From contig CAMWUR010000017.1 in the NCBI GenBank assembly GCA_947177485.1, positions 1-36,939 on the forward strand: a stretch of 36,939 nucleotides of DNA, read 5' to 3'. The notes beneath the pieces are model-generated. The model was given only the letters and a program-made list of their open reading frames with translations, had not been told where the DNA came from and searched no databases. Position 1 is the stretch's first letter. The number at the start of each line of letters is the position of its first letter. This DNA comes from an uncultured Helicobacter sp. GTDB taxonomy: Bacteria > Campylobacterota > Campylobacteria > Campylobacterales > Helicobacteraceae. Of this stretch, positions 31,952 to 35,914 are shown piece after piece. Both the position numbers and the translations under genes were made by a program.

Positions 31952-33385
31952 CTAGAGAACGAGCTCGGCAACCCGCTTGCCATACGCTGGGTCAGCCTTT
32001 TTGAAATGCTCGATTTGTCGCTTTTTAATCTCTGTTGGCACGCCTTCCATTGCGTCCTTGATATTTTGGCACAACGCTTCTTTTTGCTCCGCGCTCATTA
32101 AGCGATACAAATCCCCAGCTTGCACGAAGTAGTCGTCCTCTGTATCGCGGTGATTGTATCTATCCGCCACATCGCCGCCGTCTGTGCGCAATGCAGGCTC
32201 AAGCGCGTTAGAATCCTCCGCATAGTCATTATAAAAGCTTGGCTGATAATTGCGTGCACCACCAAATGCGCCTTGCTGCATGAATCCATCGCGATGCGTG
32301 TTGCTTATGGGCGCAATCGGTGCATTGACAGGGAGCTGCGTATGATTCACTCCCAAACGATAACGTTGCGTATCCCCATAGCTAAAAAGCCTGCCTTGCA
32401 ACATTTTATCGGGGCTATACCCTACTCCGGGAACGATGTTTGCAGGATTAAACGCCGCTTGCTCGACTTCGGCAAAATAGTTTTGCGGATTCTTATTGAG
32501 CTCCAAAATCCCTACTTCGATGAGCGGGTAATCTTTATGACTCCAGACTTTTGTCAAATCAAAAGGATTGAACCGATATTTTGGCGCATCGCTTTCGGGC
32601 ATAATCTGCACACAGAATCGCCACTTGGGATAATTCCCCTTTTCGATATTCTCGAACAAATCGCGCTGATGACTCTCTCTGTCGTTTGCGACAATGGCTG
32701 CCGCTTCTTTGTTTGTGAGGTTATGGATTCCCTGCAATGATTTGAAATGAAACTTCACCCAAAAACGTTCATTTTTCGCATTGATAAAACTATACGTGTG
32801 GCTTCCAAATCCATGCATTTCGCGGTAACTGCGTGGAATCCCGCGGTCGCTCATGAGAATCGTTACTTGATGCACACTCTCGGGGTGCAAGCTCCAAAAA
32901 TCCCATGCTGCCGTATTGCTACGCAAATTGGTCTTGGGGTCGCGCTTTTGTGTGTGGATAAAATCAGGGAATTTCACAGCGTCTTTGATAAAAAAGACAG
33001 GTGTATTGTTGCCAACAATATCCCAATTGCCCTCGTTTGTGTAAAGCTTGAGTGCAAACCCGCGCACATCACGTTCGGCGTCTGCTGCGCCCCTCTCGCC
33101 TGCAACGGTTGAAAAACGTAAAAGCGCTTTAGTTTTTTTGCCGACTTTACTAAAAAGTTCTGCTTTAGAATATTGCGTGATGTCATTGGTGATTGTCAGC
33201 TCGCCATACGCCGCGCTACCTTTGGCATGCACGACTCTTTCAGGGATTCTCTCGCGGTCAAAATGTGCAAGTTTTTCAAGCAACCATGTGTCTTGCAAAA
33301 GCGTTGGTCCTCGTTTGCCCGCTGTCATCGAGTTTTGGTTATCACCAATAGGTGTGCCTGTGGCAGTTGTAAATGTTTTAGCCAT
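31952..33385 (-). CDS. katA: Haem catalase KatA
   Basis: A 477-residue monofunctional catalase. Catalytic His53 is in [11 protein letters not shown], the distal Asn in [12 protein letters not shown] near residue 126 and the proximal haem Tyr in [14 protein letters not shown] near residue 336, with the small-subunit clade length. It removes hydrogen peroxide. In Helicobacter and Campylobacter it is regulated by Fur or PerR. The start is ATG with AAGGAG seven bases upstream. The sequence lacks the extended Lys-rich C-terminal tail that H. pylori KatA (505 residues) carries. Confidence 0.95.
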
Positions 33386-33439: not shown

Positions 33440-33685
33440 TTATGAAATTTTCTCATTTATTTTGGGGATTTGCTTTTGAAATCTTTCGAATGGCAGATAG
33501 CAAATTAAACACGTTCGCTCGCTTTGGTTGGTTGTGAAGTTCGCCTCAAGATTTGTTGTATCGATTGCTTTGGGTTCTTGTGGTGTTGTCTCTGCCTCTG
33601 CGTTGGTCTCACTCGATTGCGCTTCAGACAACAACGATTCTGTTTCTGCTTTTGTCGGTTTTTTGGTTGGTTTTTTGGTGTCCAT
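33440..33685 (-). CDS. Small Lys/Thr/Glu-rich protein of unknown function
   Basis: 81 residues. Thr-Lys-Pro repeats open it (MDTKKPTKKPTKAETES), followed by an acidic Glu/Thr-rich middle and a CxxC near the end (RTCLICYLPF). AAAGGA precedes the ATG by six bases. Low-complexity content makes the family unreadable. Its start faces away from the small peptide gene 33827, with a shared AGAATATTCT palindrome between them. A longer frame on the same strand (33505-33888) is out of phase and weaker. Confidence 0.5.
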   Translation of the reverse strand: MDTKKPTKKPTKAETESLLSEAQSSETNAEAETTPQEPKAIDTTNLEANFTTNQSERTCLICYLPFERFQKQIPKINEKIS

Positions 33686-33727
33686 GTTTGTCCTTTGTGT
33701 GTGTTACAAAGGATTTTTAGGATTGTT

Positions 33728-33826
33728 TGGGTAGAATATTCTTGCAAGGTGCGAATCTCCCACAAGGAGTTGGCGCTCCTTGTGAGGTGGTTTGCAAATC
33801 CTCCTTGTGAAAGGGGGTGATGCAAT
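33728..33826 (+). promoter_or_regulatory. Leader with metastable hairpins upstream of the 25-residue peptide
   Basis: TAGAAT (33732-33737) is a candidate -10. The leader holds CACAAGGAG (33761-33769) pairing with CTCCTTGTG (33776-33784), a 9-bp perfect stem with a 6-base loop. CTCCTTGTG recurs at 33801-33809, so the same arm can pair with either copy. CCTCCTT (33800-33806) can instead pair with AAGGGGG (33811-33817) across a GTGA tetraloop, hiding the ribosome site 9 bases before ATG. This resembles metastable leaders of type I toxin mRNAs. Confidence 0.55.
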
Positions 33827-33904
33827 ATGAAAACAATTACACAACTTTTAGTTATAGCATATCTTGTCTTAAAGATTGCTTTAGCCATTAAACAATGGCT
33901 CTAA
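33827..33904 (+). CDS. 25-residue hydrophobic peptide, possible type I toxin
   Basis: ATG at 33827, stop TAA at 33902. It starts MKTITQLLVIAY, has a hydrophobic core and ends LAIKQWL, a single membrane helix with basic residues at positions 2, 16 and 22. AAGGGGG lies 9 bases before the start. An alternative ATG at 33820 gives a 23-residue polar frame with only 2 bases spacing. Hairpin leader, strong terminator and a possible antisense promoter inside the gene (TGCTATAAC on the minus strand) point to a regulated toxic or signalling peptide of the TisB/AapA type, but its sequence does not match any family I recognise. Confidence 0.5.
   Translation: MKTITQLLVIAYLVLKIALAIKQWL
33851..33859 (-). 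promoter_or_regulatory. Candidate antisense promoter inside the small peptide gene
   Basis: Minus strand TGCTATAAC is an extended -10. A start near 33844 would send an antisense RNA across the peptide start codon, its ribosome site and leader, like IsoA RNAs of Helicobacter. I did not find a T-run terminator for it. Confidence 0.3.
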
Positions 33905-33959
33905 AGGTGTTTTTGTTTGCACACCTCGCTTCCCCTACACATTGTAGGGGAGCTTTTTT
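33905..33959 (+). terminator. Rho-independent terminator after the small peptide
   Basis: CCCCTACA (33932-33939), loop CAT, TGTAGGGG (33943-33950), then AGC and six T (33954-33959). The stem can extend with GCT/AGC around one bulged T. A second hairpin AGGTGT / ACACCT (33905-33910, 33921-33926) stands just before. The stop codon is adjacent, so the whole transcript would be about 215 bases. Confidence 0.8.
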
Positions 33960-33978
33960 CTATCCACTCTTGCCACTC

Positions 33979-34260
33979 CTAGAAATCCTGATTATGCGTT
34001 GTTGGGTTGCTAAAGAGCACAATGATGTCGGATAGTCCGCTTGTGGGCTGTCCATTGAAATACACGCAAAGGTTCTTGCGCTCGTTTAAAATCATCGGCG
34101 TCTTGCACGCGCTTTCGCCCGCGCCCAAGAAAAAGCTCTCGTTTCCTTGCTCATCGCCAAGTGTGAATGGCACGTCGATTGCGTGGATAATGCTGCCTTT
34201 GTGCAATGCACCCACAGCACTACCGATGGCATTGCTGCCATGCTCGGGTGTGATGTGCAT
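33979..34260 (-). CDS. Orphan 93-residue protein of unknown function
   Basis: 93 residues with a Gly-rich middle (GSNAIGSAVGALHKGSII) and a central AIDVPFTLGDEQGNESFF. The protein is predicted soluble and looks coding by codon pattern. It starts at ATG 34260 with only a weak ribosome site. In-frame codons upstream read LYPHTECLK back to a stop at 34288, so a longer original start may have been lost. A TATAAT on the minus strand (34352-34357) may drive it, giving a leader of about 85 bases. Not recognised. Confidence 0.45.
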   Translation of the reverse strand: MHITPEHGSNAIGSAVGALHKGSIIHAIDVPFTLGDEQGNESFFLGAGESACKTPMILNERKNLCVYFNGQPTSGLSDIIVLFSNPTTHNQDF

Positions 34261-34324
34261 TTTGAGGCACTCGGTGTGTGGATAGAGCTAATACCCACCG
34301 CAAACAATGACTTGCCAATCGACA

Positions 34325-34343
34325 GCAAATGCAACGCATTTGC
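34325..34343. repeat. Perfect inverted repeat GCAAATGC/GCATTTGC in the intergenic leader
   Basis: GCAAATGC-AAC-GCATTTGC, 8-bp arms, between the orphan gene and nnrD. It lies just downstream of the minus-strand TATAAT (34352-34357) and could be an operator or a leader hairpin. Confidence 0.55.
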
Positions 34344-34405
34344 AATTCTATATTATAGATTACTTTAATTTTTTTATGTTAAAATGCAACGAAAGGACGA
34401 GTGAG
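34344..34405 (+). promoter_or_regulatory. Promoter region of nnrD
   Basis: AT-rich; GTTAAAAT (about 34378-34385) is a weak -10, and GAAAGGA (34391-34397) is the ribosome site for ATG 34406. Confidence 0.4.
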
Positions 34406-35914
34406 ATGATGAAGTTTTACCATGACATAAAACTCTTAGAACGTAAGGCTTGCGAGGAATATCTCCTCACGAGCGAGCTTTTGATGGAGAATGCTGCCCA
34501 TAGCCTCGCAAACTTTATCCGCAATATTGTGCGTGAGAGAAATATCCAACCGCGAGGCGAAGGCAGACATAAGCTGCTCATCGCTGCAGGACCAGGCAAC
34601 AATGGTGCCGATGGGCTCGCGCTTGCGCGCATTTTGCAGGGCGAATATGACATCGTGATTTACATGCCCTTCGGGACGTATAGTGAGCTTTGCACATTGC
34701 AGTTTGAGCGCGTGAGTGCGCTGCGAATCGAATATTGCAATGACCACCTAAGCCCCGATATTTCTATCAAAACTTTCTTGGATACTTTCGAGAATATCTC
34801 GTTGCGCGAATGGGCAAAAGATGTTGATATTATCGTTGATGCACTCTATGGCAGCGGGCTCAATCGTCCGCTTGATGACAAAGCATGCGAAGTGATTGAA
34901 TGGCTCAATAGCTTGAAGGGGCTCAAGATTGCATGCGATGTACCGAGTGGAATCGGTAATGATGGTGATGTGATGTGGATGGCATTTCGTGCTGAATATA
35001 GCTGTGTGATGGGCGTTTGCCGCGAGAGTTTACTCGGCGATAGGGCGAAGGATTATGTTGGCAAGATTCATATCTGCTCGATTGGAATCTCGCCCCAGAT
35101 GCTCGAGCTGCTCGACATGCCGCACGGCGTTTTGCTCGAAGAGAAAGATTTGCAGCTTCCAAGCCGCAGACAACGTAATTCCAACAGCCACAAAGGCAGC
35201 TTTGGACATTTGGTCGTGTTTATGGGACAAAAAGAGGGTGCGGCAATTCTCTCTGCCCTGTCGGCATTTCGCTTTGGCGTGGGCATCGTAACGATTATTG
35301 GTGATAAAAATGCCAACGTTCCTCCCGAGATGGTGCATACACAAAGCTTACCCAACAATCCTGCTGCGCTTGCCATCGGCATGGGGCTTGGCGATTTTGC
35401 ACTCCATGACCGCAAGGGCGTGCGCAATATTTTGCTTTCGCGCCCTGTGCTTCTTGATGCGGATATTCTCTATCAAGACATCACCAAAGAAATCCTCGAA
35501 AAAAATCCTAATGTTATCCTTACGCCGCACCCCAAAGAATTTGTCGCGCTCATGCGCTTGCTTGGGCTTGCTGATTGCGAGGTACTTGAGCTCCAACGCG
35601 ACAGATTCCGCTTTGTGCGGCTTTTTACGCATAGTTATCCTAATGCAACGTTGCTGCTGAAGGGCGCAAACCCCATCATCGCGCAAGGCAATAAAATCGC
35701 CGTAAATTATTTCGGCACACCAGCGCTTGCGAAAGCTGGCAGCGGTGATGTGTTAAGCGGGCTTGTGAGCGCATTACTTGCCCAAGGTCTTGAATGTTTT
35801 GAGGCTGCTGTGCAAGGCAGCCTTGCCCATACCCTCGCTGCGCGTCATATCACAAGCGCGAGCTATGCGCTCACGCCAATGGAGCTGATTGAGACGATTG
35901 GGCGATTGGAATAA
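34406..35914 (+). CDS. nnrD: Bifunctional NAD(P)H-hydrate repair enzyme NnrD/NnrE
   Basis: 502 residues, two repair domains. The N-terminal epimerase (about 1-215) has LLMENAAHSLA and AAGPGNNGADGLALARIL. The C-terminal ADP-dependent dehydratase (about 235-502) carries KGSFGHLVVFMG, LTPHPKEF and the GTPALAKAGSGDVLSGLVSALL nucleotide site. The protein repairs the hydrated cofactors NADHX and NADPHX. ATG at 34406 with GAAAGGA upstream fits; the frame extends to 34307 but lacks a ribosome site. Confidence 0.93.
   Translation: MMKFYHDIKLLERKACEEYLLTSELLMENAAHSLANFIRNIVRERNIQPRGEGRHKLLIAAGPGNNGADGLALARILQGEYDIVIYMPFGTYSELCTLQFERVSALRIEYCNDHLSPDISIKTFLDTFENISLREWAKDVDIIVDALYGSGLNRPLDDKACEVIEWLNSLKGLKIACDVPSGIGNDGDVMWMAFRAEYSCVMGVCRESLLGDRAKDYVGKIHICSIGISPQMLELLDMPHGVLLEEKDLQLPSRRQRNSNSHKGSFGHLVVFMGQKEGAAILSALSAFRFGVGIVTIIGDKNANVPPEMVHTQSLPNNPAALAIGMGLGDFALHDRKGVRNILLSRPVLLDADILYQDITKEILEKNPNVILTPHPKEFVALMRLLGLADCEVLELQRDRFRFVRLFTHSYPNATLLLKGANPIIAQGNKIAVNYFGTPALAKAGSGDVLSGLVSALLAQGLECFEAAVQGSLAHTLAARHITSASYALTPMELIETIGRLE

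Follow-up and report, generated by a model that had tools for sequence, protein, structure and literature searches.

What does a cell gain from a very small hydrophobic peptide whose mRNA seems made to keep it from being translated? The question is raised by a short element in a draft Helicobacter genome (2.04 Mb, 97 contigs), from which we analysed one stretch of 36,939 nucleotides, hereafter called the window. A first-pass annotation of this stretch had proposed that the element has the architecture of a type I toxin-antitoxin locus. That proposal is supported in most of the points that can be checked on sequence, namely the promoter, a leader with compensatory changes, masking of the Shine-Dalgarno (SD) sequence, coding selection and a minus-strand -10 box. 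The element is probably a prophage-borne type I toxin-antitoxin locus with copies scattered over this Helicobacter genome.

The locus and its phage context

The element sits between katA (31952-33385, minus strand) and a yjeF-type gene (34307-35914, plus strand). Comparison of the window by blastn with contigs C27, C40, C67 and C86 delimits a conserved unit, running from promoter to terminator and common to the dispersed copies, at 33708-33955 on the plus strand. The positions that the first-pass annotation gave for the -10 box, the stems, the open reading frame (ORF), the minus-strand box and the terminator were all correct on direct reading of the sequence. What it lacked were a 5′-end helix GCAAGG/CCTTGT, a 3′ anti-SD, the further genomic copies and the prophage context.

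Contig C67 carries genes for a phage major head protein, a terminase large subunit and a DnaB-like helicase. Positions 33629-34263 of the window are 90% identical to it and contain pieces of the same phage genes. One is a truncated gene (33979-34260, minus strand) homologous to a 161-aa protein encoded beside the C67 major head gene; on the other side an ORF (33440-33685, minus strand) has a start, MDTKKPTKKPTKAETESLL, that matches a phage ORF beside the C67 copy. Since fragments of the C67 phage genes lie on either side of the window copy, we read its surroundings as a prophage remnant beside katA. The contig of a further copy, C86, encodes an Ant antirepressor.

Phage structural or regulatory genes surround two of the five copies, and a third lies in a phage remnant, so the product could also be a small phage membrane protein that is riboregulated and has no RNA antitoxin. 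It might then be a regulatory peptide, a holin-like lysis helper or a superinfection factor, with its SD masked until a phage signal arrives. The peptide itself, a single amphipathic helix, resembles small phage membrane proteins. That said, the C27 and C40 copies have housekeeping genes around them and no phage genes in the vicinity, which argues against such a protein; two further points that bear on this choice are given below with the RNA and its opposite strand.

Just 5′ of the promoter, at 33691-33718 (plus strand), visual inspection shows a terminator-like inverted repeat TCCTTTGT/ACAAAGGA followed by TTTTT, which may shield the element from transcription that comes from upstream.

Dispersed copies of the element

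A search of the genome found five copies that encode three distinct peptides. The C27 and C40 copies share a 273-bp unit that is 99.6% identical (L067 259-531, L068 5539-5811) at unrelated chromosomal sites, and both encode MKKVKHVLIIAYLALKIALAIREWL; the C86 copy encodes MKNIKRLIIAYYVLQIVKTIVEWIGF. Three further copies occur in Helicobacter sp. Mgla_MAG_ref_184 (G002), which we take from the 'Mgla' in its name to be of vole-gut origin. Two of these are full and encode MNIIRPLIIAYLCLKIAKTMLELTSFFVG and MKKVKHIFIIAYLVLKIALAIREWF, and in one the leader is cut by the contig end. The family is thus known from two species only, one of them represented by a 61%-complete MAG. The first-pass annotation had pointed to conservation of the peptide and of the pairing arms in relatives as telling; the peptide and the pairing of the leader stem are conserved in the copies of the two genomes.

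Strong matches to a model of the leader (R1) were found in no genome beyond these two, among 121 genomes of the Helicobacteraceae and 399 sampled from the order. The weak R1 matches at L016, L017 and L019 appear to be chance. Likewise, a peptide profile search over the family was convincing only in the source genome and G002, and its weaker matches elsewhere were judged to be chance. Neither IMG/VR, searched by pattern and by peptide alignment, nor the phages and plasmids searched by DNA yielded a relative of the window element.

The flanking phage genes of the window copy are truncated, and a related copy in Mgla_MAG_ref_184 (G2C79) has lost its promoter and gained an insertion. This might suggest that the locus was once a functional toxin-antitoxin system and that the window copy is now decaying and silent. 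We regard such decay as quite improbable: over 233 bp the window copy does not differ from that on the C67 prophage contig (100% identity), and it retains its promoter, all stems, the ORF, the antisense box and the terminator.

When the window remnant is compared with C67 (33629-33992 versus L062 213 onward), the element and its near flanks are identical, while the alignment around them is about 90% identical overall. An identical element amid such flanks suggests recent recombination or gene conversion.

The peptide reading frame

The ORF starts with an ATG at 33827 and extends to 33904 on the plus strand. It encodes a hydrophobic peptide of 25 residues, MKTITQLLVIAYLVLKIALAIKQWL, with a GRAVY of 1.37 (0.86-1.26 in the homologues) and a net charge of +3. 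Across the copies the peptides are hydrophobic and 25-29 residues long, those of five distinct copies are 46-64% identical to the window peptide, and their C-terminal ends read KQWL, REWL, REWF, EWIGF and SFFVG.

One might ask whether the short ORF is incidental and the element simply a mobile or structural non-coding repeat RNA. The leader is more conserved than the ORF, as such a repeat would predict, and a 273-bp unit that is nearly unchanged at two unrelated sites is also in keeping with it. However, the ORF evolves as a protein. When the distinct copies are compared, changes within it are in excess at third positions, and the coding score of the true frame is 2.69 against a null of 1.22 ± 0.40, a value reached in none of 2000 column shuffles. 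Moreover, none of the five distinct copies has lost the frame, which is preceded by an SD every time. A non-coding repeat is therefore a very remote prospect, and we return to the reading of a toxin-antitoxin locus.

The first-pass annotation had judged the peptide to lie outside known families. Searches of Pfam, NCBIfam and PDB with the peptides gave only sub-threshold chance matches, and the Pfam and NCBIfam results, together with an AapA1 search and an hhalign comparison with AapA described below, bear this judgement out.

Structure of the RNA

The promoter is marked by a -10 box, TAGAAT (33732-33737, plus strand). The pattern TAGAAT-N6-GCAAGG occurs in five of six copies; its six-base spacer varies in sequence while box and spacing are kept. 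From this we infer a promoter with a transcript start at about 33744.

The annotation had also proposed folding the RNA from 33744 to 33960. These 217 nt are structured far above chance, with a minimum free energy of -90.4 kcal/mol (z -8.6) and none of 200 dinucleotide shuffles as good. Among 490 windows of the same length, tiled over both strands, this fold is the third-lowest, despite a G+C content of only 42%, and three diverged copies give z-scores of -6.0, -7.0 and -6.6. The RNA had no match in Rfam, either at the gathering threshold or at E<=1.

A long leader stem-loop occupies 33750-33796 (plus strand). Over six copies 92.5% of its cells are paired, with compensatory changes at four pairs (in G2C51, for instance, C-G is replaced by G-C), while pairing falls to 42-59% in register-shifted controls. 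Within it lies a 9-nt arm CACAAGGAG (33761-33769, plus strand) whose partner CTCCTTGTG (33776-33784) is repeated at 33801-33809. The first-pass annotation had proposed that CACAAGGAG can pair with both copies of CTCCTTGTG. This pairing is present in the window and is not conserved, since both the arm and the second CTCCTTGTG have diverged in other copies of the element (CCACAGGAG in C27, TTCCTTGTA in C86). The second copy is explained better by two other roles, those of anti-SD arm in the SD hairpin and of 3′ arm in the 5′-end helix.

The SD hairpin lies at 33800-33817 (plus strand) and consists of CCTCCTT (33800-33806), a GTGA loop (33807-33810) and AAGGGGG (33811-33817). Its consensus, CCTCCTT/AAGGRGG, is conserved among the copies, with one-side changes over six copies, and it would sequester an extended SD, AAAGGGGGTG (33810-33819, plus strand), that is conserved in all copies. 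The 5′-end helix joins GCAAGG (33744-33749) to CCTTGT (33803-33808, both plus strand), with the consensus GCAAGG/CCTTGY and 97% of cells paired over six copies. Because the CCTTGT arm overlaps the anti-SD arm, helix and hairpin are mutually exclusive. Downstream of the ORF, a 3′ anti-SD TGCACACCTC (33918-33927, plus strand; core 33922-33927) is followed by an intrinsic terminator at 33928-33959 (plus strand), read from the sequence. The CACCTC of the anti-SD is invariant in five copies and the remainder of the 3′ UTR is variable.

In all four intact copies the predicted folds agree. Nascent RNA holds the SD in the local hairpin; full-length RNA forms the 5′-end helix together with a long-range pairing of the SD, and of the region up to the start codon, with the 3′ anti-SD. 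The refolding from SD hairpin to long-range lock is thus a prediction of the folding models. Swapping partners between copies costs nothing overall (own versus swapped partners rank 46/120), and we saw no sign that the two partners have coevolved within each copy; the long-range pairing is therefore kept by conservation. We also looked for a hairpin of the aSD2 type, and in the window and C27 folds pairing between the SD and the ORF is weak and appears at intermediate transcript lengths. Truncating the 3′ end did not open the SD in the thermodynamic model, where it remains 68-88% paired because the local hairpin reforms; the model thus does not recapitulate the aapA activation step.

A putative antisense RNA

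On the minus strand, the ORF contains a -10 box TGCTATAAC (33851-33859). In the five copies its core reads TATAAC, TATTAT, TATAAT, TATGAT and TATTAT, i.e. TATNAY throughout. This box is maintained because codon 10 stays ATA (Ile) in five of five copies, a rare codon that accounts for 18 of the 174 Ile codons in the window genes. We count this as support and not as proof, since at other positions too these ORFs use ATA more often than housekeeping genes do, and the copies are themselves related. A putative antisense RNA would start near 33844 on the minus strand and cover the SD and the leader. Reading of the sequence revealed no clear terminator for it in the leader.

These observations also bear on the idea of a riboregulated phage membrane protein. 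The putative status of the antisense RNA leaves some room for it; against it, a rare codon keeps the minus-strand box in every copy, and the SD is masked twice, which is typical of toxin mRNAs. We therefore hold the phage-protein explanation to be unlikely, and favour a type I toxin-antitoxin locus. For the latter, comparison of the copies at the sequence level establishes the architecture, the coding selection and the minus-strand -10 box.

A model for the locus

We propose that the promoter at 33732 would give rise to an mRNA of about 215 nt. As the RNA emerges, the local hairpin at 33800-33817 would cover the SD. Once the 3′ end is complete, this hairpin would yield to the 5′-end helix and to the long-range pairing of the SD with the 3′ anti-SD, which together would leave the full-length mRNA stable and silent. 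The minus-strand promoter in the ORF would meanwhile produce an antisense RNA that spans start codon, SD and leader and could block or destroy any mRNA that opens. Should the antisense RNA be lost, the amphipathic peptide would enter the inner membrane and harm the cell. Such harm would favour keeping the prophage, a role that the prophage link makes plausible. Transcription and toxicity, like the antisense RNA and prophage maintenance, are parts of the model that we infer. The dispersed copies provide natural variants for testing the handover from nascent SD hairpin to long-range lock.

Comparison with known type I systems

Type I loci of Helicobacter are, to our knowledge, known in detail only from H. 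pylori. The window locus adds a peptide family with an aapA-like mRNA logic in another Helicobacter lineage. The comparison with aapA/IsoA that the first-pass annotation had drawn is apt for the mechanism, i.e. for SD masking in the nascent and full-length folds and for the minus-strand -10 box, which likewise lies within the ORF. For aapA1 and aapA3 the silencing logic has been demonstrated experimentally, and for aapA3, whose full-length mRNA is 225 nt, the order of folding was worked out by genetics and footprinting (PMC6733600). The systems share a hydrophobic peptide of about 25-30 residues, an mRNA of similar length (about 215 nt in the window), several chromosomal copies, an upstream anti-SD hairpin in the nascent RNA and a 5′-3′ long-distance pairing that masks the SD, the last two being predictions for the window.

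However, there are differences. The window leader is longer (about 83 nt) and has a 5′-end helix in competition with the SD hairpin, the family is prophage-linked, and its peptides lack the C-terminal Lys-Arg that is conserved in AapA (PMC10537873). An hhalign comparison of the window family with AapA gave a probability of 0.3%, and an AapA1 search that recovered several copies in a genome of the H. pylori group had no match in the source genome or in Mgla_MAG_ref_184. By these sequence comparisons the window family is not the AapA family; it is a new family of a known kind of system.

Several AapA-like peptides, with weaker AapA1 matches, were seen in another Helicobacteraceae genus (g3), in contigs C4 and C13 of genome G046 (L140). 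The one that was read ends in Lys-Arg.

Two further systems are worth considering. In hok/Sok the toxin mRNA refolds from a metastable to an inert, 5′-3′ paired form, as summarised in PMC6733600, and a metastable-to-inert refolding is also predicted for the window; the peptide and the leader are different, and the Pfam and NCBIfam searches gave no match to Hok. In the Ibs/Sib loci of Escherichia coli an antisense RNA lies over the ORF and the ribosome-binding site (PMC4147584). These loci resemble the window family in being multicopy and in encoding a very short hydrophobic peptide. The window peptide is longer and cationic, and we take it, by eye, to be unlike Ibs; the peptides of the class described next look more Ibs-like.

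A broader class of similar loci

Two of the genomes with weak matches to the leader model, G101 and G106, have hydrophobic micro-ORFs directly after the match. A second model, R2, built from four leaders of these matches, finds loci in 32 of 121 Helicobacteraceae genomes, the weakest of which are probably chance, and in 11 of 13 genera, with up to 12 copies each. The R2 loci (L069-L138, e.g. L079 1501-1583, L072 1501-1583 and L074 1501-1585; alignment A10) combine structured leaders with hydrophobic ORFs of 22-25 residues. In a set of 65 distinct leaders, 94.9% of cells are paired, against 46-62% in slid controls. Two-sided changes affect 16 of the 18 pairs and 125 cells in all, compared with 27 ± 5 such cells in shuffles. 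An antisense TATAAT stands at a fixed ORF position (an example peptide is MSKIKTKILAVIILLCIIVVKCG), where it overlies two successive Ile codons. It is present in 45 of 58 distinct peptides, against 12.3 ± 3.0 when synonymous codons are shuffled. This excess supports the antisense-promoter reading for such loci. Most R2 SDs (39 of 58) pair with upstream sequence, a point in which R2 differs from the window element. Matches to R2 occur in 41 Helicobacter cinaedi prophage records; in one of these prophages, L147 (BK070071.1), the element lies unannotated between phage genes at 2501-2665.

R2 is thus the broader class. It is multicopy and occurs in a quarter of Helicobacteraceae genomes; its leaders covary very strongly, and its antisense promoter is constrained. 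It illustrates that a search by leader structure can reveal toxin-like loci that peptide searches miss. The literature searched, which left out T1TAdb, Fozo 2010 and Arnion 2017, held no description of R2, and we claim no novelty for it.

R2 resembles the window element in its promoter and 5′ stem, in a hairpin that sequesters the SD ahead of the start codon, in the hydrophobic peptide, in the antisense -10 box and in having prophage copies. The R2 model aligns to the window element over its full length and in register but scores only 15.2 bits (E 0.09), and hhalign found no match between the two peptide profiles (probability 16%, 6 columns). Given this modest score and the lack of a profile match, common descent of R2 and the window family is possible and unproven. 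A wider conjecture, which we hold only tentatively and with the balance somewhat against it, is that the window family, R2 and a Campylobacter plasmid locus belong, perhaps together with aapA/IsoA, as branches to a single mobile superfamily of type I toxin-antitoxin loci in the Campylobacterota. If it were true, an RNA architecture of 5′ stem, SD hairpin and antisense -10 box over Ile-Ile or Ile-Ala codons would persist while the toxin peptide diverges beyond recognition.

The plasmid locus was seen in Campylobacter coli and C. jejuni, on plasmids that are mostly conjugative, and is a similar hydrophobic micro-ORF with a TTG start, MINKILVIIILLCIIIVKAY, a promoter and a leader stem. In L148 (NZ_CP017231.1) it lies at about 1415-1560, and it is unannotated in the PLSDB gene table.
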